The position numbers were made by a program, and so were the translations under genes. A stretch of 64,000 nt of DNA from Amycolatopsis sp. GM8 (GTDB taxonomy: Bacteria > Actinomycetota > Actinomycetes > Mycobacteriales > Pseudonocardiaceae): assembly GCF_021653975.1 (NCBI RefSeq), contig NZ_JAJKFK010000007.1:434001-498000 (forward strand), read 5' to 3'. The notes beneath the pieces were generated by a model. It was given only the letters and a program-made list of their open reading frames with translations, did not search any database and was not told where the DNA came from. Below, one piece after another: positions 5,414 to 50,361 of the stretch (position 1 is its first letter; every line of letters begins with the position of its first letter).

Positions 5414-5471
5414 AACTTGTGGAGCTAAGGGGACTCGAACCCCTGACCCCCTCACTGCCAGTGAGGTGCGC
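5414..5471. repeat. att site, left copy of 58-bp direct repeat (tRNA-Ala 3' half)
   Basis: This 58-bp stretch is identical to 30841-30898. Positions 5420-5471 are the 3' half of tRNA-Ala(GGC): anticodon arm, variable loop, T-arm and acceptor strand. Beyond 5471 the sequence departs from tRNA, so this is not a functional tRNA gene. It marks the far junction of an element that entered at the tRNA gene. Confidence 0.93.
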
Positions 5472-12283: not shown

Positions 12284-15200
12284 AGTTCATCCACCACGGG
12301 TTGAATTCCTGCTGGTGCACCGTGCGGGGCACCGGGACGAGGTTGTTGAAGTCGTTCGTGCCACCATACTCGCGCGGGATGATGTGGTGGATGTCGTACT
12401 GCGACCATCCGCCTTCCGGCGTCGAGTAGCCCCGGTCGTACCACTCCTTGATGTACGCGCCACGCTGCTGAGCACCCCACGGCACACGATCACCGACCGG
12501 CACCTTCGACAAACCAGACGGCGGAGCCGGGATCGGATCACCCGTCCGTGGATCGAGCACCTTCGGGTACGCCCGACCAGCAGTATTCAGGATATCGTCG
12601 GTGCCAGTTGCGGCTCTTCCGAGCTTGGTGGCTTCGCCTACGAGTTCGCCGATTTTACCGAAGAAGGGTATGAAGCCGCCGATGGCCATGGCGCAGGATC
12701 CCAGTTGAGGGTTGGTGCCACAGTTGTAGGCGTCGGTTATGCCGGATATATCAGCGAGGAATTTACCGTCGAATTCGTCGTAGCCTTGTTGGAGTGCCTC
12801 ACCGAGGCTGGTTGGTTCGTGAAAGTGGTTGAACTGGCTGTCGATGTTGCGTTGCATCGCCCCGGGGTTATCGCAGGCCGGGTTACCTGGCACAAGACAC
12901 GCTTCGTACTGTTGCTGTACGTATTGGTCTGTCGCGCGTTGCTGGTCGTCGGGTGGGGTGTCTCCGCCACTGGTTGCGGTGGTGTATTCGGCGGCTTGCG
13001 CGATTGATTGGTGGGCTGTGGTGGTGTCGAGTGTCGGGTTGGTTTCTTCGGTGAGGTTGGTGATGGGGGCTGTGTCGGAGCCGGGTCCGTCAAGGGCGGG
13101 GTTGCTGGTGCCAGGTTGGGGTGTCCAGCCTTGGGCTTGGGTGTTGGGTCCGTTGAGGGGTTTGGAGTTGGACGCGGGTTCGTTGACGCGTTGTTGAACC
13201 TGCGCGGCATCGGAAGGGGCTTGCAGTTCGCTGGTACAGCTCGACAGGGACTGCAGCAAGTCGTCGTCTAACCCGAGGCCCGCGCCGATTCCCTCGAGCG
13301 CGAGGATTGCGTCGAGCACGGATCCGAGTGCCCCGAGTCCGCCGTCGCCGTAGCGGCCTCCGCCGTAGCCACCCCCTGTGCCGTAGCCACTGCCTCTGCC
13401 GTTACCACCACCTCTGCCGGAACCGCCTGCAGAGTGGCCAACGCCTCCGCCGGAACCACCTCCGCTGTTGGTGTCACAGGCGCTGGCGCCGCTGGGGTCG
13501 CTCTGGTTGAGCGGGTCAGCATTGCCGTAGAGGTAGGGGTTCGCGTCCGCCGCGGACCCCGCGAGGTTGGTGGTGGTGTCGCGGCTGGTGAACGCTCCCA
13601 TAGCGGGCGAGTACCAGCGGGACGCGGTTTGCACGAACTGGGTATTGCCGGTATCGGTCCAGCCGCCTTGGTAACCGATGTTGGCCTGCGTTCCTAATGT
13701 GGTGGTCGGGGTACCCCAGGGGTCGAAGTTGACCGACCCGGCGAGCGCGGTCCCGGCGGGGGTGACCAGGGCGGTGAGGTCACCGTGCTGATCGTTGAAC
13801 GCCAGGGCCGAGCTGCTGCCGCTGTTCACGGCCATGACCTGGCCACCTGCGTCGCGGCTGAAGGTCTGGGTGCCGTCGGCCACTGGGGTGGGGTCGGTGC
13901 CGTCGTAGGTGAAGGTGTAGGTGCCGGCGGTCGCGGTACGGCCGAGGGCGTCGTAGCTGTAGTTCGTGGTTCCGGCGGTGGCCAATTGGTCGAACGCGTC
14001 GTAGCTGTAGTTGGTGGTCGCGCCACCTGCGGTCACCGAGGTCATGGCGCCGCGAGCGTTGTAGGTCGTGCTCGAGGTGTTCGCACCGGTGGTGCTGGTG
14101 ACGAGTTGGTTGCGGGCGTTGTAGGTGTAACTGGTCGCCCCAGCCTGGGTGCGGTTACCCGCACCGTCGTACGTGTAGTTGGTGGTCGTGCCGCCCGCAG
14201 CCCACGAGGTTGTGCGTCCGGCTTGGTCGTAGGTGTAGGTGTTCGCCGCGGCACCAGCAGTGCCGGTGTTGGTTTTGGAGGTGATCCGGCCGTTGGCGTC
14301 GTAGCCGTAGGTGATACCGGCGAGCGCGGCACCGGTGGAGGTGGCCAGGGTTTGCCCGGTGAGTTCGTGGGCGGTGTTGTAGGTGTAGCTCTGGGCGGCG
14401 TTACCGGTCCCATAACTGATGCCGGTGGGCTGGTCGAGGGTGTTGTAGGTGTAGGTGGCGGTGGTGCCGGTGAGTGGATCAGCCGCGGTCGCCAAGGTCC
14501 CCGTCGAGCTGTAGGTGAAGTTGGCGGTGCCGGCCTTGTCGGTGCGGGAGGTGAGTTGCCCGTTGGAGTTGTAGGTGTAGCTGGCTGTGCCGCCTGGGCC
14601 GGCGGCGGAGAGGATGCTGCCGCGGTCGTCGTAGGTAAAGGTGTTGGTGCCGGTGGGCGCGCTGGCCGAGGTGAGTCGCCCGGCCGCGTCGTAGCCGAAG
14701 GCGCGGGTCGTGCTCGCCGATTCCGCGCCGGCGCCGGCTGCGCTGGTGAGCCGGCCGAGCACGTCGTAGGTGAGGGTTTCGGTGACGCCGCCGGGTTGGG
14801 TGATCCCGGTGACGTGCTGGTCGGCGTCGTAGACGCGGGTGATGGTGCGGTCCGCGGTGGTGGTGTAGTTGGTTACCGCGGGCACGATGGTGGATTCGCG
14901 TAGCTGCAGCGGGTTGTAGGTGTAGATCGTGGCGTTGTTGTTGCCGTCGGTGTAGCGGGTGGTTTGCCCAGCAGCGTCATAGCCCCAGCTGGTGGTGATC
15001 GATGTCGTGACCGGGGGTGTCGTTCCGGTGGTGGACACCGGCTCCACCTGTTGGGTGCGGCGGTTACCGGCGTCGACGGTGTACTTGGTGACGTTGCCCA
15101 GCGCGTCGGTGGCGGAGGTGATGTTGTCGGCGACGTCGTATCCGGTGCTGGTGGAGCGCAGCGTCGCGCCGGTCGCGTCCAGTTGCGCGGTCCCGGTGCG

Positions 15201-18200
15201 CCGACCGGCCAGGTCGTAGGTCGCGGTGACCGCAGTGCCGTCCGCCATTGTGGTTGTGGTGGGGCGCTGCTGGCTGTCGTAGGTGTAGCTGGTCTTGTGG
15301 CTGGCGGGGTCGGTCACGGTCAGCGGGTCGCCGAAACCGTCGTAGGTGTAGCTGGTTTGTTGCCCGCCGGGCAGCGTGACCGCGGTCGGTAAGTTGACCG
15401 GGCCGGAGGTCGGGCTGTAGGTGTAGATGGTGGTGTCGGCGACGCTGGTGGGTTGCCGGACCACCTGGGTTCCGGTGATTTTTTCGCCGAGTTTGTCGTA
15501 GGTGGCTTGGGTTTGCGCACCACTCGGGTCGATCACGGAAAGCTGTTCCCCGTCGGTGTCGTAGGTGTAGAGCCAGGTCGTGGCTGTCGTGCCCACCGTG
15601 GGCTGCGCACTCTTGACCAGGTTTCCTAGCTGGTCGTAGGTCTCGGTGGTGACGTTGCCCAAAGGGTCGGTCACCGTCGCAACGTTGCCGAGGTTGGTGT
15701 AGCTGTATTTCGTCAGCGGAGTGATCGCCGTCGTCGACCCCGGCGGGGTATAGACCGGGCGGGACACACCGAGGATTTCGGAGTCCGCATCATAGGTGTA
15801 GCTGGTGATGTTCCCATCGGGATCGGAGACGCTGGTCTGGTCCCCGAAGGTGTTGTACCCGTATTCGGTGATCGGGTGTACCACGGTTGCGGTGCCGCCG
15901 TTGGTTTCCGCATTGACGGGCGCACCGGTGACCATCGTGCGGCGGCCAACAGCATCGGTGGTGTAACTGGTGGTGAAGCCTGCGCCCCCGGCGCCGTAGA
16001 CGTTGCCGCGCGGGTCCACAGTGGACGTCAACGCGCCACGCTGGTCATAGGTATGGCTCGTGGTCAGGTTGGAGCCGTCTTTCACCACCTCGGTGAGAAC
16101 ATCGCCGAGCGTGTCGTAGGTGTAGTCCGTTTCCGCGCTGGGCGCGTTGCTCGGGATCGTGGTGGTGCCATCAGAGTTGATGCTGCCGATGGGGGTGACG
16201 GCTGCGGTGATGTGGCCGTCCGCGTCGTAGGTGTTGCTGGTGGTGCTATTGCTGGCGTTCTGGTCAGTGCTGACGCGGCCGTTGGCGTCGTAGGTGTAGG
16301 TGTCGCTGGAGTGCTGGAGTGGGACAACAACCTTGACCGGGTTGCCGGCCGCGTCGTACTGGTACTGGTCCAGCGTCAGGTTGGTGGTGCTGGTGCCCTG
16401 GGTGAAGTTGACCAGCGTGCTGTCCAGCAGGCGGCCTCGCCAGTCGTAGGTGTAAATGGTCTGGCGCCCCATCGAATCGGTGTCGGAGGCCAGGTAGCCG
16501 TCGGGGTCATAGGCGCGGGAATCCAGCACCAAATTGGATGCCGTGGACGGACTGACGGGGTTACCCGTCCAGCCTGTGAGGGTCGTCGTCAGGCGGTGCC
16601 CGTTGGCGTCGAAGGTGCCGGTGTAGGTGTTGCCACCCGGATCGGTGCTGGAGGTCAGGTTGCCGTAGCTGTCGTAGCTGTAGCTGGTTTTACGACCCAG
16701 CGGGTCGGTGGTCGTGGCGAGTTCGTCGTCACTGTTGTAGGTGTTGGTGGTGGTGCGGGTCGCGTCGCCGCCGGTGGTGTCGGCGGCAGCTTGGGTGAGC
16801 AGGTCACCGTCGGCGTCGTGGCTGTTGGTGATCTGCGGGGTATGGAGGGTGCCGGTGACCGCATCGGTGGTGGCCGGGCCGGTCTGGGTGGAAAGCTGGT
16901 TGTTGCCATCCCAGGTGTAGGAGGTGGTGACACCGGACGGGAAGGTGTCCGAGGTCTGGGTTTGCCCTGTGCGACGGCCGAGGTTGTCGTAGGTGCCGGT
17001 GGTGGTCAACCCTGACGGCGCCACTACCTTCGCCAGGTCACCGGCCGCGGTGTAGCTGTAGGTCGTGGTGTTCCCCATCGGGTCTTTCGCCGTCGCGAGC
17101 AGCCCAGCGGGTTCGGTGCCGCCGCCGACCGCGGCTTCGGTGCCGGCGGTATAGGTGTTGGTGGTGACCCCACCCAACGGTGCCGTCGTGGTCAGCAGAT
17201 CGCCGCCCGCGGAATAGGTGTAGCTGGTGCGGTAGGTGGTGTCCGACGGGCCCGAGGAGTTCGGGTCGAGGTAGGTCAAGGGTTTGTCGTCGCGGGGATC
17301 GGTGACGGCATAGGTACCCGTAGCCGGATAGGTGTAATAGCTGGTGGCGGAGGAACCGCTGGAATCACCCGTGGTGCGCGACAACGTGTTGCCGCGCGTG
17401 TCATGACTGGTGGTGACGTAGTTACCATCCGGGTAGGTCGTGGTGTAGCCGAACCCGTTGGTGTCGTAGGTGTAGTGGGTGGTGTTGCCTAGTCCGTCGG
17501 ACGCGGCGATCAGCTTCGACCCCTTGGCCGGGTCGTAGGTGTAGGACAGGGTGTGGCTGCCCGGGTCGGTCACGGTCGCGGTGGTGACCGGCGTGGGGCT
17601 GGTCGAGGACTTCTGGGCCGCGGTGTAGAGCCCGGACACGGCGGTCCCGCTCAGTGGCGTGTTGTAGAAGGCGATGTCGGCGACCGAGCCGGTGAAGTAA
17701 CCGCCCGGGTTGGTGCTCGCAGCGCTGGCTGGGGCGCCGCTACCGAAGGTGCCGGAGCCGATCGCGATCGTGGGTTGGGCCGCGGAGGGGTTGATCGGTC
17801 CGGTCGCTGACGCGGCCGACTTACCGTCGATGTATTCGGTTTCTGAAATAGAGTTGTGGCTGAAGTCCACGCTTTGCACGACCGCGATGTAGTGCCACTT
17901 GCCATCAGTGACCGTTCGTGGACTGGCCAGGTAACCACTGCCATACCAGGAATAGAGCTTGCCATCGGCGCCGATATAGACCAGGGCACCGTTATTCAAG
18001 CCCACGAGAACTTCGCCGGGGGTTGAGGTTTTGACCCACAGGCTCACTGACTTGCCGATGCCGGACCAGTAACTGCTTTGCACCGGAATCGTCAGCGAGG
18101 AGCTCGTGCCGTTGAAGCTTGCGGCTGTATCGCCGGTATTGGCCAGAGGCCCGGCTTGGCCGAGGGTGACATTGTTGTAGGTGCCGTAGCCGTCGCTGGT

Positions 18201-21200
18201 GGCGCTGATCGCACTCGTGGGGACCTGGTTGACCGCTTGGGTGCCGGTGGTGTCAGTCAGCGGCCAAAAGTCGGTGGGGTTGCTGGCAAACACCGCACCC
18301 CGGTATTGCGCCGAGGATCCGGCCGTACTCGGTGGGGCTAGTGCCCACGCGCCGCCGTGGAGGTCGGTGACCTGTGTGGCGCGGTCGAGGATGTTGTCGT
18401 AGGTGACTTGCCCGGCCTTGGCACCGGCGGGGGTGGTGATCGTGGTCAGCTCCGCGGCGGGCTGGCTGCCGGCCGCCCACTGTTGTGCGATCGCCGGCGC
18501 GCCGAGGGCGTGGGTGTAGAAGGCGGTGTCGGCGATGTTGCCGGTGAAATGGCTCCACCCGCCCGCTGGGCCGTTGACCCACGGGTTGCCGTTGACGTAG
18601 CCGGCGCCGATGAAGTTCATCGGGTCGAGGTTGGCTAGATTCCCCGACCGGCTACCAACCAGGGCCCCATCGAGATACATCGACTGCGTGTTGCCTTGCC
18701 CAACAAGAGTGACCTGGTGCCAGGCGGAGTTATTGACCTTGTTCGCCGACACGATCGGGGCGACGCTGCCGGTCCAGAACTGGCCATACAGTTTGCCGTC
18801 GGTGCCGACATACAGCACCGGCATCGCGCCCGTGCTCGGGTTCGCCGACCCGATCGCGGAGTGCCCGGTGGACATCAACACCCCAGCGGGGCCGTTCAGC
18901 GTGGTTTGGAACCATAACTGCACCGAGTTATAGGTGGAAGTCTCGACCAGGTTGTTCGGCAGCTGCAGGGAGGCGTTCACACCGTTGAACCACGTCGACT
19001 CGCTCGGCGACCCGGGGTGCGGCGTCGAGTTGCTCACGGTCACGTTGCTCAACGCGCCGTTGTCGGTGCCGAGGTTCGCGGCGACCTCATCGGCCGCGGT
19101 CGTGGTGGTCGAGCCTTGGTTGAGTCGCCAGTAGGCATAGGGCTGGGCGTCGAGAACGGTGGAGCGGTAATGCGAGCCCGATCCGGTTCCGCTGGTGTAG
19201 GCATACGCCGTGCACGCGGTCGTCGACGTCGGCGGACACACCCCGGTCAAGCTGTTCCCGCTGTAGGAGTAGGCCCAGGTCAACGCGGCTGCACCGGTGG
19301 TGACCGGGTCAGTGGCGACCTGCGTGACGTGCCCGCCGGTGACCGTGATGTGCAGCGCCCGGTTGCCGGCTGCGCTGGTGATCGCGGTCAGGTTCCCGCT
19401 CGTGTCGTAGGTAAGGGTTTCGGCGCGGCCGTCGGCGTCGGTGATCTTGGTCAGTTTCCACGCCGCACCTGCCTGCTGCCCGAACGTGTAGGCCGTGCCG
19501 CCGCGGTCGGTCAGGATGTAGCCGCCACCGGTGATCGACGCGAAGGTGGCGTACGTTCCTTGCGGTGGCGTGTAGGTCGTGCCGTCACCGTTGAGTCCGA
19601 ACCGGGCTGTGTGGCCGTCGGGGAAGGTGACCACCACGTTGTTCGAACCGTCGTTGTCGGGCACGGCCGTCATGTCGTACACGGTGGACCACCCGGCGCC
19701 GAACAGGTTCCCGGTCCGGGGGTCTTGCGAGTTATAGGAGCGCACCACCGACAGAGCGGGGCCCGCAACCGCGACGCTGGCATCGGTCGCGCCACTGGTG
19801 TAGTCCCCGACCCCGGGGTCGAAATCGCGGCTACTGGTTTTCGCGGCCCCCATATGCGAGGTCACCAGCGGCTGCGACACCGTCGTGGAAAAATACGACG
19901 GGGTCGACCAATAACTGTAGCCGATGGTGTCGTAGTCCCTGACCGTCCAGTAATAGGTTTGATTCCACGCCAGCTTCCCCGACGGAACCACGTAATTTCC
20001 ACTGGACTGTGCCCCGGAGTCCACCACCAGCGTTGGGTTTCCACCACCGGCGGGCACCGAGTACACCTGGAAATCGAACGTGATTCCGTTCCCCGGATAG
20101 TTGTCCGGGTCGTGTCCGGTCGCGAACAGTTGCGGCCGCAAACTGCTCACCACCACGTTTGACGGTGGATTTGTGGAGTCGATCTGGGGTGGCGTGTTCA
20201 GCGAGTTGATCGTCTCGCACGTTGAGGGCACGTTATAGGTGAGATTCGATGAGGTTGTGCCGTCGAACATATCCCAGCACAAGGTATATTGCCCAGGATT
20301 AACTGGTCCTATAATTGCGTTCAAGGTGATCGACTGATTCGGCGCCACCTGACTCGGCAGCTCCGTCCACGGGTCGACCGAACCGTTGATGCGCAGGTTG
20401 TTCCCGTTCAAGTCATACAGCTGGTACCACAAGTGCTGCTGGCCCGGCATCCACGTGCTGTTGCCCAGGTTCGTGACCGTCACCTGCTGCGACCCACTCG
20501 CCGTCCCCGTCGGCGCGGTGTAGTTGGGTGCCGGGTTGTAGCTTGCGCCAAACGGGCTGTAGGTGACCGACAGGAACGGGGGGTTGGTGGAGTTGAGGCT
20601 GGCGAACTTCTTCCAACCGTAGGAATCGTAGGTGTCGGCGGTCACGGCAAGGCCATTGTTCACACCACCATGCGTCCAGGACTCGACCAATTGCGTGCCC
20701 GCAGCCGATGGATTGTCACCCAAGTCAACGGATTCCCACGCAGCTTGTGCGCACGTCGAACCGGTTCCTGACCATCCGGTGGCGAAATCGCCCCATCCGA
20801 CCGCGCCACCGATCGACACCCACGGATACGTCTTCAACCCACCCGTCGACCAACCCGAGGTGATCGGAGACACCCACACGCGTCGCGCTTGGCAGGAGTA
20901 GGACCACACCTCGTCCAGGTTGAGCGAGACCTTCTCGATGTAGTCGTTGGTCAGGCCCATCGTGTCGAACTTCAGATAGGAATTCGTCACGTTGGAGCCG
21001 CTATCCCACGTGCCGACATCCAGGACCGTGTCGGCGGAAAAGTCGTTGTTGTAGGGCGACATCACATACGTCGACCCCGACGTGTTCGGGTTCGCCACCG
21101 ACGGGTCCACCCGCACCGGGAACATGCGGGACTTGTCGTGCAACCACGCCGCATCCAGCGTGACCTGCAGCGCCGGCTGGTTGTTGACGGTGTTCAGAGC

Positions 21201-22190
21201 GTAGGTGACGCCGGTGGACAGGACACCTTCATCCGATTGCGGGTTGATGTTGGCGTCGCGCATGTAGCCGTGCGCGATCGTGTCCACCACCTGGCCCCTA
21301 GCGTTGGTGAACACCACACTGCCATCCGGCCCCATCGACGGCGTGACCCCGGACAGGGTCAGCGGGAACACCCACGTGGTCGGCGCGTCCACACTGTTGA
21401 GGACCAGAGTTTCTTTGACCCCGCCATTGACCGTGGCCAGGTAGTTCAGGTCGGTGTGCGGGGCGATGCCTGGGTAGGTGATCGTGGAATCCGTCGCCAC
21501 ACCAGCGCTCTTCGCCGCGCCCTGCAGCCCGAAGGCGATGCTCTGCCCCGGCCCCACCGGCACCGACACCAACGCTGGATCATCCGCCGACGGCGCGAAC
21601 GTCACCGACGCCGAATCAGCCTTCTCACCCCACCGCCCCTTGTCGCCCAGTGCCAAGCTGGTGTTGATGTCCGCCCAGCTACCGTCGGCGCGCTGGTAGT
21701 GCACCGGACGCGAATACACCTTCGCCGTCTCACTGCCATCCCCGTTCGCGAACACCGTTTTCGTCGCGGTCCGCTTCTCCGGCAGCTCCCGCCCTGTACT
21801 CGCCGCCGGCTCATGCAGCCGCGGCGGCCCAGGGTTCGCCGTCCCCTGCTGCGGCTCATTGGACAGATGCGGATTCAGCGGCGCCGCTTGAGTTTTCCCC
21901 TCCTCCGCTGCACCCGCCGGCGCCTTCGGCGCCGCCCCACCCCTCGAGCTGGCAATCGCAGAGCTTGCCGTGTGCGGGGCTCCCGCCGCCGAGCCAGACT
22001 GCTGGAGCGGTGTGGCCGGACTCGGGGGCGTTGGCGCCGGCGACACGGCCCATGCCGACTGTCCACCCACCAACACCAGAAGCGTCACCGCCACAAACAA
22101 CGCCAGCCATCGCCGCACCACACCCCCGCAACGATCCGCCAGTCGCGACGCTTTGCGATTTCGATGTGATCCCCAACCCCAGGTGGCCAC
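12273..22190 (-). CDS. giant secreted Rhs/YD-repeat protein with C-terminal HNH nuclease tip
   Basis: 3305 aa from the GTG at 22190 (GGCGGAGGAG just upstream). A signal peptide spans residues ~1-45 (RRWLALFVAVTLLVLVGG, then QSAWA). In order follow a Pro/Ala-rich stretch, a DNRLRE-type domain (~360-550), an Ig-like NBR1-type domain (~560-680), a DUF6531-like start of the Rhs part (SSRDFDPGVGDYTSG, ~775-880), two LamG-like lectin folds (~1015-1230 and ~1290-1530), about 50 YD repeats (~1540-2800), the Rhs core ending ANPYLYGNADPLNQSDPSG (~2890), a Gly-rich linker, and the tip. The tip ends YDIHHIIPREYGGTNDFNNL, then VPVPRTVHQQEFNPWW: an HNH nuclease. The Rhs shell would encapsulate the toxin and DNA would be its target. 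The immunity gene overlaps its 3' end. Confidence 0.93.
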   Translation of the reverse strand: MATWGWGSHRNRKASRLADRCGGVVRRWLALFVAVTLLVLVGGQSAWAVSPAPTPPSPATPLQQSGSAAGAPHTASSAIASSRGGAAPKAPAGAAEEGKTQAAPLNPHLSNEPQQGTANPGPPRLHEPAASTGRELPEKRTATKTVFANGDGSETAKVYSRPVHYQRADGSWADINTSLALGDKGRWGEKADSASVTFAPSADDPALVSVPVGPGQSIAFGLQGAAKSAGVATDSTITYPGIAPHTDLNYLATVNGGVKETLVLNSVDAPTTWVFPLTLSGVTPSMGPDGSVVFTNARGQVVDTIAHGYMRDANINPQSDEGVLSTGVTYALNTVNNQPALQVTLDAAWLHDKSRMFPVRVDPSVANPNTSGSTYVMSPYNNDFSADTVLDVGTWDSGSNVTNSYLKFDTMGLTNDYIEKVSLNLDEVWSYSCQARRVWVSPITSGWSTGGLKTYPWVSIGGAVGWGDFATGWSGTGSTCAQAAWESVDLGDNPSAAGTQLVESWTHGGVNNGLAVTADTYDSYGWKKFASLNSTNPPFLSVTYSPFGASYNPAPNYTAPTGTASGSQQVTVTNLGNSTWMPGQQHLWYQLYDLNGNNLRINGSVDPWTELPSQVAPNQSITLNAIIGPVNPGQYTLCWDMFDGTTSSNLTYNVPSTCETINSLNTPPQIDSTNPPSNVVVSSLRPQLFATGHDPDNYPGNGITFDFQVYSVPAGGGNPTLVVDSGAQSSGNYVVPSGKLAWNQTYYWTVRDYDTIGYSYWSTPSYFSTTVSQPLVTSHMGAAKTSSRDFDPGVGDYTSGATDASVAVAGPALSVVRSYNSQDPRTGNLFGAGWSTVYDMTAVPDNDGSNNVVVTFPDGHTARFGLNGDGTTYTPPQGTYATFASITGGGYILTDRGGTAYTFGQQAGAAWKLTKITDADGRAETLTYDTSGNLTAITSAAGNRALHITVTGGHVTQVATDPVTTGAAALTWAYSYSGNSLTGVCPPTSTTACTAYAYTSGTGSGSHYRSTVLDAQPYAYWRLNQGSTTTTAADEVAANLGTDNGALSNVTVSNSTPHPGSPSESTWFNGVNASLQLPNNLVETSTYNSVQLWFQTTLNGPAGVLMSTGHSAIGSANPSTGAMPVLYVGTDGKLYGQFWTGSVAPIVSANKVNNSAWHQVTLVGQGNTQSMYLDGALVGSRSGNLANLDPMNFIGAGYVNGNPWVNGPAGGWSHFTGNIADTAFYTHALGAPAIAQQWAAGSQPAAELTTITTPAGAKAGQVTYDNILDRATQVTDLHGGAWALAPPSTAGSSAQYRGAVFASNPTDFWPLTDTTGTQAVNQVPTSAISATSDGYGTYNNVTLGQAGPLANTGDTAASFNGTSSSLTIPVQSSYWSGIGKSVSLWVKTSTPGEVLVGLNNGALVYIGADGKLYSWYGSGYLASPRTVTDGKWHYIAVVQSVDFSHNSISETEYIDGKSAASATGPINPSAAQPTIAIGSGTFGSGAPASAASTNPGGYFTGSVADIAFYNTPLSGTAVSGLYTAAQKSSTSPTPVTTATVTDPGSHTLSYTYDPAKGSKLIAASDGLGNTTHYTYDTNGFGYTTTYPDGNYVTTSHDTRGNTLSRTTGDSSGSSATSYYTYPATGTYAVTDPRDDKPLTYLDPNSSGPSDTTYRTSYTYSAGGDLLTTTAPLGGVTTNTYTAGTEAAVGGGTEPAGLLATAKDPMGNTTTYSYTAAGDLAKVVAPSGLTTTGTYDNLGRRTGQTQTSDTFPSGVTTSYTWDGNNQLSTQTGPATTDAVTGTLHTPQITNSHDADGDLLTQAAADTTGGDATRTTTNTYNSDDELATTTDPLGRKTSYSYDSYGNLTSSTDPGGNTYTGTFDANGHRLTTTLTGWTGNPVSPSTASNLVLDSRAYDPDGYLASDTDSMGRQTIYTYDWRGRLLDSTLVNFTQGTSTTNLTLDQYQYDAAGNPVKVVVPLQHSSDTYTYDANGRVSTDQNASNSTTSNTYDADGHITAAVTPIGSINSDGTTTIPSNAPSAETDYTYDTLGDVLTEVVKDGSNLTTSHTYDQRGALTSTVDPRGNVYGAGGAGFTTSYTTDAVGRRTMVTGAPVNAETNGGTATVVHPITEYGYNTFGDQTSVSDPDGNITSYTYDADSEILGVSRPVYTPPGSTTAITPLTKYSYTNLGNVATVTDPLGNVTTETYDQLGNLVKSAQPTVGTTATTWLYTYDTDGEQLSVIDPSGAQTQATYDKLGEKITGTQVVRQPTSVADTTIYTYSPTSGPVNLPTAVTLPGGQQTSYTYDGFGDPLTVTDPASHKTSYTYDSQQRPTTTTMADGTAVTATYDLAGRRTGTAQLDATGATLRSTSTGYDVADNITSATDALGNVTKYTVDAGNRRTQQVEPVSTTGTTPPVTTSITTSWGYDAAGQTTRYTDGNNNATIYTYNPLQLRESTIVPAVTNYTTTADRTITRVYDADQHVTGITQPGGVTETLTYDVLGRLTSAAGAGAESASTTRAFGYDAAGRLTSASAPTGTNTFTYDDRGSILSAAGPGGTASYTYNSNGQLTSRTDKAGTANFTYSSTGTLATAADPLTGTTATYTYNTLDQPTGISYGTGNAAQSYTYNTAHELTGQTLATSTGAALAGITYGYDANGRITSKTNTGTAGAAANTYTYDQAGRTTSWAAGGTTTNYTYDGAGNRTQAGATSYTYNARNQLVTSTTGANTSSTTYNARGAMTSVTAGGATTNYSYDAFDQLATAGTTNYSYDALGRTATAGTYTFTYDGTDPTPVADGTQTFSRDAGGQVMAVNSGSSSALAFNDQHGDLTALVTPAGTALAGSVNFDPWGTPTTTLGTQANIGYQGGWTDTGNTQFVQTASRWYSPAMGAFTSRDTTTNLAGSAADANPYLYGNADPLNQSDPSGASACDTNSGGGSGGGVGHSAGGSGRGGGNGRGSGYGTGGGYGGGRYGDGGLGALGSVLDAILALEGIGAGLGLDDDLLQSLSSCTSELQAPSDAAQVQQRVNEPASNSKPLNGPNTQAQGWTPQPGTSNPALDGPGSDTAPITNLTEETNPTLDTTTAHQSIAQAAEYTTATSGGDTPPDDQQRATDQYVQQQYEACLVPGNPACDNPGAMQRNIDSQFNHFHEPTSLGEALQQGYDEFDGKFLADISGITDAYNCGTNPQLGSCAMAIGGFIPFFGKIGELVGEATKLGRAATGTDDILNTAGRAYPKVLDPRTGDPIPAPPSGLSKVPVGDRVPWGAQQRGAYIKEWYDRGYSTPEGGWSQYDIHHIIPREYGGTNDFNNLVPVPRTVHQQEFNPWWMNYGG

Positions 22191-22496
22191 TACAGACTCC
22201 TCCGCCCAGCCCCTCCGCAGCGGAGGCGCGACCGGAATCAATTTGACGTGCACTGAACACCAATGAGCAATAGTGATCCATGTCATAGTAATAAAAAGGG
22301 AGACCAGTTCGATCTTAATGCTCAATTAATTGCGGCCCGGCCCGAAAAGTCGCTCCAATGGAGCAGTCAAAGTTGTATTAAGGCTCATATTTGTACACGG
22401 AAAGGGAAATTCGGACAACTATGCCACATGGACCAGGTACGCTCATCGACGCTTGAGGTCGAGCATTCTCGGCAACATATCCAAGGAGCACCGAAC

Positions 22497-23732
22497 GTGG
22501 GTTCCCATCCGGCGCCGCGATACAGCCGTGTCGCCCGCAAAGCAGCAGCACTTGCTGCCGCCGCAACCCTTGCGTTCACCACGGCCGTTGCCCACGCCGA
22601 CGAGATCGGTGCGACGGAATGGCCCCTGGATGGCGAGCACTTCAATGCCCAGCAAGTGTGGACTCACAGTCGCGGCACAGGCGTCACAGTCGCCGTCCTG
22701 GACACCGGCGTCGAAGCGACGCATCCCGATCTCGCCGGACAAATACTGCCCGGCACCGGGTTCGCTGGGATCGCCTCCGACACGGGACAATCTGATTTTT
22801 CCCGCGACTCACACGGCACCTCCATCGCCGCAATCATCGCCGGAACTGGACACGGCACAGCGAGTGGGAAAATGATCGGCCTTGCGCCCGGTTCGAAAAT
22901 CCTCCCCGTTCGTGTGGCAATCGGCGACGGGGTCGAGCCGATATCGCTCGCCCAGGCAATCGTCTACTCCGTCGATCACCACGCCCGCATTATCAACATC
23001 TCGCAAGGCACCACCGTCCCCGATCCGCAGATCCGCGGCGCCATCACCTACGCACTCGCGCACGACACCGTCGTTGTCGCAGCCGCCGGCAACAGCGGAC
23101 GTCAAGCAAACCTGCCGATCTATCCGGCCGCCTTTCCTGGGGTGATCAGCGTGACCGGCGTCGACAGAGGCGGCCAGCCGTGGTCCGGCAGCGAATCCGG
23201 CGGCACGACCACAGTCGCCGCGCCAGCTGTTGATATTTACTCCGCCGCGAACGATGGAAAGTACCTTACTGGTGACGGAACCAGTTACTCCGCGCCGTAC
23301 GTGTCGGCGACGGCGGCGCTGATATGGTCGCAACGCCCGGAACTCAGCGCCGGGCAAGTCATTCGTCAACTCGTCAACACTGCCGACCCCCACGGTGCGC
23401 GTCCACACGACGACCATTACGGCTACGGAGTGGTCGACCCTCTCCGCGCGGTCACCTCACCACCCGCCGCAGCGACGAGTAACCCTCTTCTGCAGCCCAC
23501 CGCGCCGCCCGCGTCAAGCGGATCGTCGTCATTGTCGGTCGCGGTTGTGATCGGCGTCGTGATCGTCGTGTGCGTGGCCGCCGCTACGATCGGCTACCGG
23601 TTTCGTCGACGTCGTCGCACCTCTAGTGCCCCCCACTCTGCCGAATCACGACAGGGGAACCACGCACGTCGACAACGCGACAGGTCCATACCCGCTGTCC
23701 GCGGGCGCCAACCATCCCGAGGAAAACGCTGA
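22497..23732 (+). CDS. subtilisin-like (S8) serine protease, secreted and membrane-anchored, mycosin-like
   Basis: 411 aa. The GTG at 22497 has AAGGAG 9 bases before it. The signal peptide is residues ~1-40 (ARKAAALAAAATLAFTTAVA, then HA). The catalytic triad is Asp69 in VAVLDTGVEATHPDL, His106 in DSHGTSIAAIIAG and Ser263 in GTSYSAPYVSATAAL, with the oxyanion Asn in AAAGNSG. A C-terminal helix (SVAVVIGVVIVVCVAAATI) and basic tail anchor it, as in type VII mycosins. No EccB/C/D/E or WXG100 genes are nearby, so it is not part of an ESX locus here. It is divergent from rhs (about 300 bp between starts), so it may process the Rhs protein at the cell surface (inference). Confidence 0.88.
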   Translation: MGSHPAPRYSRVARKAAALAAAATLAFTTAVAHADEIGATEWPLDGEHFNAQQVWTHSRGTGVTVAVLDTGVEATHPDLAGQILPGTGFAGIASDTGQSDFSRDSHGTSIAAIIAGTGHGTASGKMIGLAPGSKILPVRVAIGDGVEPISLAQAIVYSVDHHARIINISQGTTVPDPQIRGAITYALAHDTVVVAAAGNSGRQANLPIYPAAFPGVISVTGVDRGGQPWSGSESGGTTTVAAPAVDIYSAANDGKYLTGDGTSYSAPYVSATAALIWSQRPELSAGQVIRQLVNTADPHGARPHDDHYGYGVVDPLRAVTSPPAAATSNPLLQPTAPPASSGSSSLSVAVVIGVVIVVCVAAATIGYRFRRRRRTSSAPHSAESRQGNHARRQRDRSIPAVRGRQPSRGKR

Positions 23733-23896
23733 ACCAACGCTGCTGAGCCGGTCACCGCACCACGAAACCCTCGACCAAACACCACAAGGACGATCGCAGT
23801 TGCGATGCACGGCCAAGCCCGCCAGCAACGTCAACCACAGGTCCTTGTCCAACACACATGCATCGTCAGGCGACGTTACCCAGGAGGGGACGCATC

Positions 23897-24421
23897 ATGA
23901 GCCTCAAACAGCGGGTTCTGACTCTGCGTAAGTATTGGAAAATAACTCTCCCCTCGGCTCTCGTTGTGGTTGCTGGAATCGTTGCTGCTGTGGTCTTGCT
24001 GGACGCGACGTCCCCACCGAAACCGACCATCTACACGAACCTGTCGCGCCACGTCCGGGTATGCCTGGTGACCAGTGTGCGGAACACGGCGCGGGCCGAC
24101 CAGCTGTGGCCCGCCGTCCAGGCAGCCACGGCGCACGCGGCCATCAATGCCCAGCGCATCAACGCCCCCGCCACGAGCGACAACGACCTTGGGTCCTACC
24201 TCAACAGTGCGATCGCGATGCACTGCGCCGTCATCGTCGCAGTCGGCGACGACCTGCGCGATCCCGCGATCGCCGCGGCAAAAACCCACTCTGAACAACA
24301 CTTCCTGGTCACCACACCGTCCAACCCGCCCGCCAATGCCGAGGCGATTCCGGCCACAGCGCAGGAGCTGACCAATGCCGTGATCACGGCAGCGCATGCG
24401 CCACCACCAGCACCTCACTAG
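23897..24421 (+). CDS. membrane-anchored BMP-like (periplasmic-binding fold) protein, copy 1
   Basis: 174 aa, with AGGAGGGG before the ATG. One N-terminal helix at ~15-36 (ITLPSALVVVAGIVAAVVLL) anchors an extracytoplasmic domain. That domain starts RVCLVTSVRNTARADQLWPA, then VQAATAHAAINAQRI, the opening of BMP/PnrA-type binding proteins (V-C-L-V-T, then W-x-A, then A-A). It continues with HCAVIVAVGDDLRDPAIAAA and HSEQHFLVT, the matching second Rossmann half. It is only half the length of a BMP lipoprotein and has no lipobox or ABC permease, so it is not a transport receptor. A paralogue is at 26717-27244. It follows the protease gene in the same direction. Confidence 0.7.
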   Translation: MSLKQRVLTLRKYWKITLPSALVVVAGIVAAVVLLDATSPPKPTIYTNLSRHVRVCLVTSVRNTARADQLWPAVQAATAHAAINAQRINAPATSDNDLGSYLNSAIAMHCAVIVAVGDDLRDPAIAAAKTHSEQHFLVTTPSNPPANAEAIPATAQELTNAVITAAHAPPPAPH

Positions 24422-24747
24422 GAGACGACAGGCGCACCGCGACGCGCGAGGCACAATCGGGTCTTTACAAACCATGCCACGCAACGCAGTCTCGCACCCA
24501 ACCGGCCCGTACCCTCGCCGAACTCGATAGCGAGAAAATCGCGGACCACGGCGGTCATTGGCCCACTGTGGTTGATCGACCCTAAACGAGGCAGCGGCGC
24601 GAACATCCTTCCGCTGCCACGGCCAGCCGAGGTCGCGCGGCGCGTACGGCCGCGGACGCGTTGCGTTGAGCATGGAATGCCCGTTCTAGGCACCGCCTGC
24701 GCTGGCGGAAACCCGTTGAAGGACGAGACAATATTGCGCTACACAAT
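24422..24747. other. spacer with no convincing gene
   Basis: About 325 bp between the BMP-like gene and the recombinase remnant. The minus strand has an open frame (24418-24693) with a short protein-like stretch (LPRLGSINHSGPMTAVVRDF), but no recognisable family or ribosome site, so it is left unassigned. Confidence 0.35.
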
Positions 24748-24926
24748 CAGGCTTCGGCATTCCGCCGGGATATTTCGGCGGCATAGCCGGAACGGGTGCT
24801 TCCGGCGACGTTGTTCCAGGCCGTCGCGGTCCCAGGGTACAGGTTGAACAAGTCGGACAGGACCGTAGCGGGAAGCTGAGCGGCCAGGTCGATCAGCGCG
24901 GTGTTGCGGCTCAGCCTTGCTTGGAT
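24748..24926 (-). pseudogene. C-terminal remnant of a site-specific integrase
   Basis: Reading from 24926 to the stop at 24748 gives ARLSRNTALIDLAAQLPATV, then LSDLFNLYPGTATAWNN and RSGYAAEISRRN. This is the characteristic C-terminal extension of a group of actinobacterial site-specific integrases (R-N-x-A-L, L-A-x-x-L-P, L-L-x-L-H/Y-P-x-T-A). Only about 59 codons remain, and the upstream part is cut off exactly where the IS3 remnant begins. Confidence 0.6.
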
Positions 24927-24929
24927 GTG

Positions 24930-25743
24930 GTCTGCCCCGGGTTTCGTGGAGTCCGATTGCTGGATTTCATGCCACGACGGTTGCGTTCTCGAACTCTATC
25001 GGAGTGAGCCATCCCAGTTGGCTGTGACGGCGTTGGCGGTTGTGCCAGATCTCGAGGTACTCGAAGATCGCGTTGGCCAACTCGACCCTCCGTGCGCGAC
25101 CAGAACGACTCCATCATCGCGTTGTCGTAACAGTCCCCGATGCTGCCCATCGACGGGCACCAGCCCGGAGTCCTTCGCGCGCTTGGTGAACGCCCACGAT
25201 CCATATTGGACTCCCTGATCCGAATGGATGATCGTGCCAGACTGCGGAGCCGGTTGTCGATGGCCATGCCGAGCGCGTTCGTCACTAGGGCCGCGGTGGG
25301 CGAGGAATCGATAGACCAGCCCACCACGCGACGAGAGTAGACATCGAGCACGACCGCGCAGTAGACCTCGCCCTCGCGAGGAGTGCGGTGCTCAGCCACT
25401 TTCGGTTCGGTCCCGCTGCCGTGAAATCGCGCTTCACCAGATCCTTGGCGATCTCGTCGGGCTTGGTGTGCTTCCACCGCGGCCGCCCATGGCGCCAACC
25501 AGACGGGCGCGGCGCATCAGCATCTCCACCGCCCCGTGACCGACCAGGATCCCACGCCCCAGCCGCAGCTCGGCGTGCACACGGCGGGCACCGTAGCGAC
25601 CCCGGGAGTTCTGGTGGATATCGGTGATCACATCGGTCAGCCAAGCGTGCCGGATCGATCGAGCTGATGGTGAGCGGGATCGCCAGGCGTAGAACCCCCG
25701 ACTCTGACACCTCCAGCACCCGGCACGCGAGCTGGGCCGGCAC
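24930..25743 (-). pseudogene. IS3-family transposase (orfB) remnant, frameshifted and 5'-truncated
   Basis: Pieces of an IS3 orfB are spread over three frames: RGFYAWRSRSPSARSI and RYGARRVHAELRLGRGILVG (N-terminal part), EIAKDLVKRDFTAAGPNRKW in the next frame, then YCAVVLDVYSRRVVGWSIDS (first catalytic Asp in VLDVYSR) and MGSIGDCYDNAMMESFWS (the D-N-A-x-x-E-S-F motif). The orfA and the start of orfB are missing. The end near 24930 has the CCACGAAACCCGGGGCA type of IS3 terminus. It is fused at ~25743 to the rhs N-terminal fragment. Confidence 0.75.
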
Positions 25744-26357
25744 CCACGCCAATGAGGGATCGGCAGCGGAGGGCGCGAAGGAAGTCGCCGCCGCGTCTGC
25801 CTTCTCCGCCCAGCGCCCCGATCCGCCCTGCCCCAGTGTGGTGTCGATATCCGCCCAGTTGCCATCAGCAGTGCGGTAATGCACCGGGCGCGAATACACC
25901 TTCGCCGTCTCGGTTCCATCCGGGTTGGCGAACACCGGCGTCGTCGCCGACCGCTTGCCCGTGATCTCCCGCCCGGGGCTCGGCGGTGCCGTGCGCTGCC
26001 GCGGTGGCGCCGTTGTCGCCGTACCGGTCTGCGCCACATTGGACAGATGCGGGTTCAAAGGTGCGTCTGCGTGCTCGCCTGCGGTGCGGCGCCGGCTGGC
26101 GTCACTTGGGCGGCACCGCCCTTCGTCGCCGCTGTGGCCGGGGCCGCGCTGTGCGGGGCCCCGGCCGCGGTACTGGAGCGCTGCTGCGGAGTCGGCTGAG
26201 TCGGCTGCGAGGACACACTCGCCCACGCCGGCTGCGCCATCCCCGACACCACCAGCGCGACCGCCGTCGGCACGGCCGTCACCCGCGTCCCCAGCCCGCG
26301 CCTCAGCCGCGAGTTCTCTCCCCGATCACGATTTGCCCAGCGTGCCGCAGCGACCAT
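25744..26357 (-). pseudogene. N-terminal fragment of a second rhs gene
   Basis: This is clearly paralogous to residues ~1-215 of the large Rhs protein. It has a signal peptide (TAVPTAVALVVSGMAQPAWA), a Pro/Ala-rich linker, then LNPHLSNVAQTGTATTAPP, ETAKVYSRPVHYRTADGNW and WAEKADAAATSFAPSAADPS; the large protein has matching ETAKVYSRPVHYQRADGSW and FAPSADDPA. A frameshift near 26060-26090 separates the signal-peptide part from the rest. At ~25743 the sequence passes into the IS3 remnant, so no Rhs core or toxin is left. Confidence 0.85.
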
Positions 26358-26716
26358 CGTGCAGTCCTCCGCTTACGGGCTCCTCCCCAGCGGAGTTGCA
26401 CCAACAACGGATTTCACGCGAAACAAACGCACAACGTCAATTGTGACCACGATCACTGTAACGACGGAACGCTTCAAGGCCGATTAATGTGCGCTCTTCT
26501 CTCTGTTGATCTTGCTTCTGCAGCCATTCGGAGTACGACAATTGCGGACTTTCAGGCAAATCTGGACAATAATTTTTGGGCGATGGAATGATCACAGCCA
26601 CCCGGCAGACTCCTTGCCACCACACGGATCCAGGCCGTAACGTGATGACAAAACTTGCGTTGCCGCGGACCCCGAAATGGGCCACATCGGTTCACCAACG
26701 AAACACACGAGGAAAC

Positions 26717-27244
26717 ATGCGGGCGATTTCTAGGTGGTCGTTTTCAGTGTTGCGACGACACTGGAAAATAACCATCCCAACGGGGATTGTCGTCGTAGCG
26801 GGCATCGCCCTCGCGATCGTGATGTGGGTGCTACCCGACAGTCCACCCCAGGCGGTCGTCTACACCAACGTGTCGGCCAACTTCAAGGCGTGCCTGCTGT
26901 CCACCACACGCGATGCCGACGACTCCGAGCACGTCTGGCCCGCGATCCAGGCGGCGGGCACCCGGGCCGCCATCAACGCCCAGCACATCACCGCACCCGC
27001 CGGCACCAGCGACCAACTCGTGCCCTACCTCAACAGCCTGATCTCACTGCACTGCGGACTGATCATCACCGCCGGCACCGACCTCACGCAACCCGCCCTT
27101 GACGTCGCGAAAACCCATCCGCAGCAACGATTCCTCATCCAACCACCCCACGACCCCCTGGCGAACGTCGACTCGATCCCCAGCCAACCCGACGCCCTCA
27201 CCGCGCTCGTCGCCGCCGCGGCACCCACCACCCCCGCCCGATAG
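26717..27244 (+). CDS. membrane-anchored BMP-like (periplasmic-binding fold) protein, copy 2
   Basis: 175 aa, paralogue of the protein at 23897-24421. The N-terminus aligns (LRRHWKITIP versus LRKYWKITLP). The anchor helix is TGIVVVAGIALAIVMWVLP. The domain reads FKACLLSTTRDADDSEHVWP, then AIQAAGTRAAINAQHI and HCGLIITAGTDLTQPALDVA. The ATG at 26717 is chosen by this alignment (GAGGA precedes it closely); an ATG at 26645 is an alternative. It is divergent from the broken rhs2, as copy 1 lies beyond rhs1, with no protease gene in between. An SGNH hydrolase follows 77 bp later. Confidence 0.7.
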   Translation: MRAISRWSFSVLRRHWKITIPTGIVVVAGIALAIVMWVLPDSPPQAVVYTNVSANFKACLLSTTRDADDSEHVWPAIQAAGTRAAINAQHITAPAGTSDQLVPYLNSLISLHCGLIITAGTDLTQPALDVAKTHPQQRFLIQPPHDPLANVDSIPSQPDALTALVAAAAPTTPAR

Positions 27245-27320
27245 CGTCCGCCACCCGCCCTCGCCGCCCGAAGCTCCTGCGAAACAACCACCCACCCGAA
27301 CAGACCACAAAGGACTACTG

Positions 27321-28088
27321 GTGAAACGCACCGCCATGTTGATCACGACCACCGTCGTTGCCGCACTGGTCGCGATCGTCGTCGACGCCGTCCCCTCCGA
27401 CGCCGCCGGAGCCAGCTCCGCCTGGTGCACTTCGCAGCACAACGTGGCGATCGTCGGCACCTCCGCCGACACCGGGTACGGCACCACCGGCTACCCCTCC
27501 AACGCCCAGACCTACCAACCCACCACCTACGGCTGGACACTCCGCTTCGCCAACAGCCTCCACGCCCAATGGGGCACCACCATGGAAAACTACGCCCACA
27601 ACGGCGCCCTCGCCTCCGACTACCTACCCGGCGGACGCTGGACCGCCACTACCAGCGCCACCACCGACATCACCGCGAAACAACCCGAACTCGTCATCAT
27701 CGACCTCGGCGGCAACGAGTTCTACTCCCAAGTCCCACCCAACACCTTCGCCACCAACCTCACCAACGTCGTCAACAGTGTCAAAGCCGCCAGACCCGGC
27801 GCCACCATCCTGCTGTCCACCTACGCCCAACTGGCCTGGGCCCCCAACCCCGACGCCGCCACCGAAAACTACACCTGGAGCCAATACGCCACCCAGATCT
27901 ACAACACCGCCGTCACCGACGGCGTCGCCATGATCGACATGCGCCAATACATCCCAGCCGCCGCCAGCACCAACCTGCCCAACCCCAGCCCCTGGAACTC
28001 CGACAATATCCACCTCAACGACGCCGGAAACCTCGCCGAATACGGCGGATTCTGGGGCTGGGCCTCCGCCATCGCCTCCATCTGCTAA
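27321..28088 (+). CDS. secreted SGNH/GDSL-type hydrolase
   Basis: 255 aa from the GTG at 27321 (AAGGA upstream). The signal peptide is ~1-28 (MLITTTVVAALVAIVVDAVP, then SDAAGA). The SGNH blocks are present: block I VAIVGTSADTGYGTTG (Ser in the G-T/D-S position), block II Gly in NYAHNGALASDYLPGG, block III DLGGNEFYS (the G-x-N site), and block V DNIHLNDAG (the D-x-x-H pair). It should be an extracytoplasmic esterase or lipase of unknown substrate. It lies 77 bp after BMP-like copy 2 in the same direction, so it probably shares its transcript. Confidence 0.8.
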   Translation: MKRTAMLITTTVVAALVAIVVDAVPSDAAGASSAWCTSQHNVAIVGTSADTGYGTTGYPSNAQTYQPTTYGWTLRFANSLHAQWGTTMENYAHNGALASDYLPGGRWTATTSATTDITAKQPELVIIDLGGNEFYSQVPPNTFATNLTNVVNSVKAARPGATILLSTYAQLAWAPNPDAATENYTWSQYATQIYNTAVTDGVAMIDMRQYIPAAASTNLPNPSPWNSDNIHLNDAGNLAEYGGFWGWASAIASIC

Positions 28089-28415: not shown

Positions 28416-28872
28416 GAAAACCGAAAGTGTTCAGCACAGCGTGCTCCCAAAATGCTCCCCAAACACACCACCAGCCCGTCGGCAAAAATCACCGACAGGC
28501 CGTCTGACCAGCGTAAACAGATGGTGGGCGATACTGGGATCGAACCAGTGACCTGTATCGTGTCAACTATGCTCAACTGTGGGCGATCAGCTAATTCCCG
28601 CGGCTGAAATCAGATAATTTCGCAGTTCCTGGCTTGTGTGGGAGTTTAGGCGGCGTCCTCCTTCGGGGTGGTGTTGCGGCCTTTGGGTCGCTTGTTGGGC
28701 CGGCAGCTGGGGCCGTCCATGAAGACTTGGTGGCCGTCGCGAGCACGTCCCGACCAACCGCTAACCGAAGCTGCACTTTCGGATGTTCGTGCAGGTCAAG
28801 GCTGTGCACTGTGGAGAATGTGCCTCCTTGGCGCACCAGACGGTGTGCGCCTCGTCTGATGGGAGGCCTGTC
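28416..28872. other. spacer between integrase remnant and integrase gene
   Basis: Apart from the tRNA fragment at 28522-28553 I see no complete gene. On the minus strand a short frame ends GHQVFMDGPSCRPNKRPKG (stop about 28646), which could be the tail of a lost gene. The 80 bp before the integrase contain its ribosome site (GGGAGG at 28861). Confidence 0.4.
28522..28553 (-). repeat. tRNA 3'-end fragment (tRNA-Val-like), old att site
   Basis: On the minus strand this reads as the last ~32 nt of a tRNA: the T-arm around GGTTCGATCC, an acceptor strand ATCGCCCA and an encoded CCA. The sequence resembles actinobacterial tRNA-Val with a GGGCGAT acceptor. No anticodon or D-arm follows, so it is not a tRNA gene. 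Next to the recombinase remnant it looks like an attachment site left by an element that used a different tRNA from the present island. Confidence 0.6.
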
Positions 28873-30067
28873 ATGGCTTGGGTAGACAAGATCGCGCAAC
28901 ACTCGTGGAGGGTGCGGCACCGGCGCGACGGCGGCAGCGTCGAGTCGATCTACGGATTCGACAACGCCGAAGCCGCGCAGGACATCGCCGGCGCGCTCGA
29001 CAGCCATCGGCGCCGCACCAGCTGGCTGAACCTCTCCAACGACCGCACCACGGTGATCACCCTCGCCGACTGGGTGTGCAACTGGTGGCCAACGCTCGAT
29101 CTGGACACCCGCACCCTGGAGAACTACCGCAGTTACCTGCGCTGCCACATCCTGCCCCGCTTCGGCACGCTCCCGATCCAGGCCATCACGCCCCTGGATA
29201 TCCAGGCCTGGAGCACCCACGCCCTCGAAGGCTACGCCCCCGCCACCATCGGCGGCTGGAAAAACCTACTGTCCATGATCTTCACCGACGCCGTCGACGA
29301 AGGCCTCGTGGCCACCAACCCCGTCCGCAAACACCGCGGCCGCGGACGCCGCTCCCGCCACCTCCGGCCAGAACGGATCTGGGCCACCCCCGAACAAGTC
29401 CTCGCCGTCGCGGACCAGGCGGGCATGCTCGGCGGCCACATCGCCCGTCTGCTGATCATCACCGCGGCCTGGACCGGCTGCCGCTGGGGCGAACTCACCG
29501 GACTCCACCGCGACAACATCGACCTTCAGCATGGCGTCATCACCATCGACACCTGGGAAGGCGCACTGCACGAGTCCAACGGCAAGCGGTGGATCGGACC
29601 ACCCAAGACCGCCTCTTCCGCCCGCCGCATCCACCTGCCCCCGTTCCTCACCGAACTGCTACGGCAGCACCTGGACACCCACCCCTACGAGTACGTGTTC
29701 ACCACCGAGTCCGGCACCTGGCTGTGGCGTTCCACCTTCACCCGCCGCATCCTGCACCCCGCCGCCGACGGCAACCTGGGTGTCGCCAAGCCGGCAGTGC
29801 GCACCCACCCCAGCCTGCCCGGGGCTGACGTTTCACGGGCTGCGACACAGTCACAACACGTGGTTGATCACTGACGACATCCCCGAGATCGCCCGCGCCC
29901 GCCGCCTCGGACACCACGCCGACAACCGGATCGCCGAAACCTACAGCCACGTCTCCGGCGAGATCCACCAGCGGCTCCTCGCCAGCCTTGAACACCGCTG
30001 GCACACGGCCCCACACCAGTGCTGGCACCGAACAGCAGACAGACCCATTCACGCCCGAACGCAGTGA
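28873..30067 (+). pseudogene. int: island tyrosine integrase, one-base frameshift
   Basis: The ATG at 28873 has GGGAGG upstream. The N-terminal core-binding domain (LADWVCNWWPTLDLDTRTLE, then NYRSYLRCHILPRFGTLP) and the catalytic part up to AWTGCRWGELTGLHRDNIDL (box I Arg) are in one frame, followed by a Lys-bearing PPKTASSARRIHLP. At about 29820 (CCCGGGG) the frame must move by one base to reach LTFHGLRHSHNTWLI (box II H-x-x-R), RRLGHHADNR and TYSHVSGEIHQRLL (catalytic Tyr). Without the shift the protein ends at 29874 without box II and Tyr. It lies ~780 bp from the intact tRNA-Ala and points toward it. It is a real frameshift or a homopolymer read error. Confidence 0.85.
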
Positions 30068-30840: not shown

Positions 30841-30898
30841 AACTTGTGGAGCTAAGGGGACTCGAACCCCTGACCCCCTCACTGCCAGTGAGGTGCGC
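30841..30898. repeat. att site, right copy of 58-bp direct repeat (within tRNA-Ala)
   Basis: Identical over 58 bp to 5414-5471. It covers the 3' half of the intact tRNA-Ala gene and six bases past its 3' end. The repeat ends inside the anticodon-stem/D-arm side of the tRNA, as usual for integrases that cut in the anticodon loop. Confidence 0.93.
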
Positions 30899-50348: not shown

Positions 50349-50361
50349 TTGTGAAACGTTG

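Follow-up and report, generated by a model that had tools for sequence, protein, structure and literature searches.

Why does a gene for half of a binding protein lie next to an rhs gene, and why does it do so twice in the same stretch of DNA? The question is posed by a 64,000-nucleotide stretch of the genome of Amycolatopsis sp. GM8 (contig NZ_JAJKFK010000007.1, positions 434,001 to 498,000; hereafter the window), in which a complete and a broken rhs gene each stand divergent from a gene for a short, membrane-anchored relative of the BMP/PnrA binding proteins, here called half-BMP. A sequence-only reading of the window had proposed a functional unit centred on the Rhs protein, and both adjacency and co-occurrence across genomes strongly support that proposal. 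Half-BMP and Rhs very probably work together, and the pair is a real, conserved two-gene partnership within the known Rhs polymorphic toxin systems that has been extended in the branch to which the window belongs. The genes of the two loci are as follows.

12273..22190, minus strand: rhs1, predicted secreted Rhs polymorphic toxin with an HNH-like tip (PF05593, PF20148, PF13385, TIGR01643, TIGR03696)
22497..23732, plus strand: mycosin-like S8 protease with a C-terminal transmembrane helix, GTG start (PF00082, 3.1e-43; TIGR03921; hydrophobicity)
23897..24421, plus strand: anchored half-BMP protein 1 (BMP-like 1), ATG start (sequence comparison, hydrophobicity)
24911..25736, minus strand: IS3-type transposase remnant interrupting rhs2, ends approximate (open reading frames; plasmid matches over 24924-25742)
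25737..26360, minus strand: N-terminal stub of rhs2, ends approximate (300-nt repeat with rhs1)
26717..27244, plus strand: anchored half-BMP protein 2 (BMP-like 2), ATG start
27321..28088, plus strand: predicted secreted SGNH/GDSL hydrolase, GTG start (PF13472, 1.1e-16 for the longer open reading frame 27099-28088)

The gene order is as first described: rhs1 is divergent from the S8 protease gene, which is followed by half-BMP protein 1, and the rhs2 stub, cut by the IS3-type remnant, is divergent from half-BMP protein 2, which is followed by the SGNH hydrolase. Both rhs genes indeed have a leader in common (25737-26036 in rhs2 versus 21557-21856 in rhs1; 300 nt, 72% identical), and by eye the rhs2 leader and the stretch after it lie in different frames. 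The description of a twice-present module holds for the Rhs/half-BMP core, whereas each window locus carries only a partial set of the accompanying genes. Inspection by eye refined the gene starts and gave rhs1 a GTG start and a signal peptide, and profile scans identified 20 RHS-repeat stretches, DUF6531, two LamG stretches and the RHS core. Of the proposed DNRLRE/LamG layout, the LamG part was thus recovered; a DNRLRE domain was not found in the N-terminal part with Pfam at E 0.01. The HNH match at the tip scores 21.2 bits, just under the Pfam cut-off of 21.4. With its signal peptide (seen by eye only), RHS repeats and RHS core, rhs1 has the build of a Sec-exported Rhs protein.

The two half-BMP proteins are paralogues of half length with one anchor each, as had been proposed, and are 43% identical over the long open reading frames (44-45% when trimmed). 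A single N-terminal hydrophobic segment is present in all 17 rows of the half-BMP alignment. By eye, neither window protein has a lipobox cysteine, and no ATPase or permease of a BMP-type transporter operon was recognised among the open reading frames of 14000-36000, in line with the earlier description; an SBP_bac_3 protein (32404-33222), outside the integrative island described below, was the sole binding protein encountered in the vicinity. Pfam PF02608 (Bmp) matches neither protein, and relatives from loci L027 and L031 score 21.8 and 20.6 bits against a gathering cut-off of 24.1. Structure prediction gave a BMP/PnrA lobe, not an unrelated fold, and lobe I only, without the two-lobe fold and its ligand cleft. 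This fold comes from a model built on an alignment of three sequences; four further models had a mean predicted local distance difference test score (pLDDT) of 66.0, 61.2, 43.5 and 41.0. The match to PnrA (2fqw) has an E value of 2.1e-8. The D-D-[KR]-SFN loop, conserved in full-length BMP relatives, is absent from the half-BMP proteins, whose cysteines and core positions are conserved. As judged from alignment and modelling, the half-BMP protein thus appears to be one PnrA/BMP lobe, homologous to lobe I, behind one transmembrane helix. In comparison with the BMP/PnrA lipoproteins (PF02608; PnrA 2fqw, Lbp 7x0r, BmpD 6shu), it lacks the second lobe, the lipobox and the ligand-type loop, is held by a transmembrane helix and has rhs genes, not a transporter operon, as its neighbours. 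The closest solved structure is 4ycs, a short, BMP-like and uncharacterised putative lipoprotein fragment from Clostridioides difficile 630, which is a lipoprotein according to its depositors; the literature search found no paper naming it.

Three overlapping draws of genomes were searched by profile: 397 of the order, 396 of the phylum and 390 of the window's own family f1, taken as Pseudonocardiaceae. The half-BMP gene occurs in four families of the order (f1, f5, f7 and f15) and in one more of the class (f18); f15 is presumably Micromonosporaceae and f18 perhaps Streptomycetaceae. A scan of named genomes returned a single relative, in Gandjariella thermophila (Pseudonocardiaceae). Order-wide, short members score at least 123 bits, apart from one decayed copy in the window's genome (28 bits), and full-length BMP proteins at most 71.5; in the f1 search four places score lower, at 118.7, 91.6, 88.5 and 70.5 bits. 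Half-BMP is a rare gene, present in 14 of the 390 f1 genomes, the window's own included, and in none of the 18 same-genus relatives of the f1 set by profile search.

To see where these genes lie, 38 loci from other genomes were picked by the half-BMP match alone and Rhs was sought by six-frame search. Rhs sequence, be it a gene, a broken gene or a stub, lies within 2.2 kb in 33 of the 38 (within 1.5 kb in 32), so that half-BMP homologues are mostly found beside rhs; some of the positive loci (L068, L071, L121) hold broken or stub Rhs. The count retains L124, whose protein has no membrane helix, and L122, whose C-terminal part departs from the family. In a selection of 23 among the many full-length BMP loci, no relative of Rhs, S8 or SGNH was seen. 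The loci fall into two subgroups. Subgroup A, which includes the window, has Rhs proteins 55-67% identical to rhs1 over long stretches; the rhs gene is divergent from an S8-BMP pair in L027, L123 and L125, from BMP alone in L119 and L121, and from BMP-SGNH-S8, the whole set, in L120, whose SGNH gene is 68% identical to that of the window. Rhs is the sole partner in subgroup B, downstream on the same strand or divergent. The protease occurs in 4 of the 38 loci and the SGNH hydrolase in one, both seen only in the window's subgroup. The constant core is therefore Rhs and half-BMP, which in most loci stand paired without further members, and the set with S8 and SGNH is a variant of that subgroup. 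In L028, a 3751-residue open frame spans both core genes. We judged this apparent fusion a chance read-through or frame error, because the BMP match ends at about residue 153-157 and, by eye, the residues that precede the Rhs signal peptide bear no family resemblance.

Co-occurrence was followed in 150 genomes of family f15, using the leader of one subgroup-B Rhs as query (E up to 1e-6) and at least 103 bits for short BMP. The leader was found in 36 genomes and short BMP in 40, and all 36 are among the 40; the half-BMP gene is thus present in 36/36 leader-positive versus 4/114 leader-negative genomes (Fisher 1.5e-30, kinship not corrected for). Two of the four BMP-only genomes (G1140 and G1187) have Rhs sequence adjoining the half-BMP gene. 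Of the 47 BMP places in this family, 32 are within 1.5 kb of a leader match (24 upstream on the same strand, 8 divergent), two in G1099 closely follow an Rhs 3′ end by arithmetic on open-frame lengths, and three (L176, L180, L187) have Rhs sequence within 0.6 kb. Rhs leaders outnumber BMP genes in 12 of the 36 genomes, with totals of 66 versus 43 over the 36. BMP and Rhs distances correlate with r 0.90 over 31 pairs and 0.79 over 19 dereplicated pairs (0 of 2000 permutations as high), a correlation that could also arise from shared descent alone.

Close to the signal peptide, subgroup-B Rhs leaders have a hydrophobic segment rich in Trp. The pattern was written after the leaders were read and is therefore descriptive; it matches in 23 of the 25 testable linked subgroup-B loci (27 in all, L030 and L070 not being scorable by script), in 6/7 unlinked Rhs of f15 genomes with a BMP gene elsewhere, and in 3 of the 20 BMP-less f1 loci (17 without), two of those three lying in G953, a genome that holds an orphan half-BMP gene. 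The pretoxin HINT domain (PT-HINT) is found in all five subgroup-B Rhs ends compared and is absent from the five of subgroup A, two of these being short.

Several observations weigh against reading half-BMP as a dedicated partner of Rhs. In five of the 38 loci Rhs is farther away than 2.2 kb or missing: the nearest is 5.7 kb away in L091 and 7.7 kb in L092, and six-frame search found none in the fetched stretch of L116, L122 and L124. Seven of the 47 f15 BMP places are without Rhs, as are three more at contig ends. Because the leader used as query in f15 was taken from an Rhs linked to BMP, it may favour the linked subclass. In family f1 a secreted-Rhs leader is present in 89 of 200 genomes, against 14 of 390 for the half-BMP gene, and the 20 f1 Rhs loci that were picked for having no BMP nearby yielded none by six-frame search either (one of them, L174, spans only 5 kb at a contig end). 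Together with the f15 co-occurrence, the many BMP-less f1 Rhs indicate that half-BMP follows Rhs, yet only a subclass of Rhs has half-BMP. Subgroup A is without the Trp-rich segment, its 3/7 pattern matches looking spurious (doubtful N-terminal extensions or a different kind of segment), and the segment would for this reason not be a general contact site. In the HINT comparison, L195 and L196 are represented by their last 299 and 249 residues only. Finally, L119 and L121 lack both S8 and SGNH.

On the basis of these results, we consider it reasonably likely that half-BMP is a dedicated, membrane-tethered extracytoplasmic partner in the export, folding or display of a Sec-exported Rhs subclass; a dedicated helper for toxin export or for holding the toxin at the surface is suggested because a half-BMP gene beside an Rhs gene recurs in many actinobacteria. 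The Rhs protein would first be exported by Sec, as the signal peptides indicate. Pairing, co-occurrence and copy number lead us to propose that the tethered lobe then meets the Rhs chain emerging from the Sec channel, probably at the N-terminal region of the chain, and may help it to fold, to stay at the membrane or to be displayed. The lobe would bind the Rhs chain and no longer a small ligand, and one copy could serve several Rhs toxins. The surface display or processing role suggested by the sequence-only reading is plausible. Release is more speculative: HINT may free the tip in subgroup B, and in subgroup A a mycosin-type protease might free the toxin in place of HINT, while the SGNH hydrolase might modify the envelope in the window's subgroup, these last two steps being the least certain. 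In a wider reading, somewhat less likely than not, one lobe of a nucleoside-binding protein could have become, in several actinobacterial families, the obligate membrane dock of a class of Sec-exported Rhs toxins. It would work in trans on the cell's Rhs proteins through the segment beside their signal peptide and so be a novel type of adaptor for export or display, with a recruited mycosin and an SGNH hydrolase as a release module in one branch and 4ycs perhaps as a distant counterpart in Firmicutes.

The Rhs tips vary: 23 of them fall into ten blast clusters, the largest held together in part by the shared end of the HINT stretch, and they match HNH, ART-HYD1 and deaminase-like families, some below cut-off. 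Several rhs genes have a small gene after their 3′ end or overlapping it, the position expected of a specific immunity gene; one of these is a DUF6881 gene downstream of L196. A variable C-terminal toxin with an immunity gene downstream, a further trait of Sec-exported Rhs systems, is thus seen here as well. Half-BMP as a toxin-specific immunity protein was rejected, since 12/36 genomes have more Rhs than half-BMP and the tips are varied. The same facts leave room for a general guard, in which the lobe would bind the shell or the leader of Rhs at the membrane of the producing cell and block premature opening and self-intoxication whatever the tip: half-BMP is membrane-anchored, and one copy stands against several Rhs proteins with differing tips. 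We nevertheless consider a guard unlikely, given the small immunity-like genes at the Rhs 3′ ends and the many related Rhs that manage without half-BMP. It is quite improbable that half-BMP is a target-contact factor or adhesin displayed with Rhs, as might be imagined from the presumably extracytoplasmic position of the lobe (judged from its helix) and the mobility of the island; some 120 residues at the membrane would hardly cross the actinobacterial wall, and conservation extends to the cysteines and the core positions. That half-BMP senses a nucleoside-like ligand (one of the examples given in the sequence-only reading, and in keeping with the PnrA homology) and thereby controls the rhs gene is very improbable, because a single lobe is left and the D-D-[KR]-SFN loop is missing; moreover, the N-terminal tail is short and has no regulatory domain. 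Mere hitchhiking on shared islands is barely credible, for although the window copy sits on an integrative island, arrangements differ, five families are involved (f1, f5, f7, f15 and f18), none of the 23 full-length BMP loci has Rhs, and genomes share both genes, as the f15 co-occurrence attests, even where these lie apart.

Among the accompanying genes of the window's subgroup, the S8 protease resembles the mycosins of type VII secretion systems (TIGR03921) in its S8 domain, its catalytic-triad motifs (by eye) and its C-terminal membrane helix. It scores 278.6 bits against TIGR03921, or 278.9 in the genome search, at a cut-off of 278.75, and its relative in L027 scores 287.1. Only one other protein of the window's genome exceeds the cut-off, encoded on contig C12; the next scores 136 bits. 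The neighbours of this C12 protein include genes that are putatively EccD-like and EccB/EccE-like. Unlike type VII mycosins, the window protease lies outside any ESX locus: Pfam found no ESX family among the 10 neighbouring open reading frames, and none was seen by eye in the others of 1-36000. With a score at the mycosin cut-off and no ESX family nearby, as opposed to the C12 protein beside Ecc-like genes, the protease thus seems to be a mycosin paralogue now detached from the ESX setting. A protease of mycosin type has also been noted near toxins of a different actinobacterial family, Ntox38 (PMC3482391).

The module as a whole lies on a mobile island, and the further features that bear on this, together with the gene beside the rhs1 tip, are the following.

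5414..5471, no strand: 58-bp direct repeat at the left end of the island, 3′ half of tRNA-Ala (identical to 30841-30898; tRNA-Ala fragment 5419-5485)
11771..12283, minus strand: immunity-gene candidate of 170 residues overlapping the rhs1 stop codon (by position only)
28783..29874, plus strand: tyrosine integrase, frame apparently interrupted (PF14659, 5.4e-11; overlapping open reading frame 29531-30067)
30841..30898, no strand: 58-bp direct repeat at the right end of the island, inside the intact tRNA-Ala 30846-30919 (repeat and tRNA search)

The 58-bp repeats, the tRNA-Ala, the integrase and a lower G+C content (63.9% inside versus 69.6% and 69.0% outside) identify the 25.4-kb stretch 5414-30898, which holds the whole module, as an integrative island in tRNA-Ala. 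A DDE transposase gene also lies inside it (9487-10341, plus strand; PF01609, 1.4e-18). Elsewhere in the window there is a tmRNA gene (50361-50730, minus strand) with the tag AKTNSQRDYALAA. The immunity-gene candidate matches nothing in NCBIfam and nothing in Pfam above cut-off; a SUKH fold was a guess that we dropped, as no profile matched and the single-sequence model (mean pLDDT 47.8) was unusable. A search for plasmid relatives of 22000-28100 matched 31 records, none covering 80% of the query; all of the 20 matches listed fall in 24763-25742, over or beside the insertion sequence remnant, and some of those over 24924-25742 are annotated as IS3 family transposase. Contig C17 of the same genome carries the decayed copy mentioned above, a third one of the BMP2-SGNH pair (L025:9644-10117), with no Rhs relative among the open reading frames picked in the 20 kb around it. 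This copy and the recurrence in other genomes confirm that the set is more than chance. About six further Rhs genes, with open frames of 453-1957 residues, are on contigs C2, C4, C6, C17 and C18; none of the three half-BMP places of the genome (two in the window, the decayed one at 314 kb of C17) is beside these six.

Neither a half-BMP partner of Rhs nor a system with this set of genes was found described in the literature searched. A close functional analogue is the WapA system of Streptococcus suis (PMC12704120): WapA-CT1 likewise has a signal sequence, YD repeats, a variable toxin tip and upstream helper genes, WapA being aided by a SecF-like protein and the sortase SrtB encoded upstream, where the actinobacterial loci have half-BMP, with mycosin or SGNH in some. 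For Gram-positive Rhs giants without a type VI apparatus, the routes of exit and of retention at the surface are still open questions, and half-BMP gives a concrete handle on them. It is also a clear example of half a binding protein put to new use.

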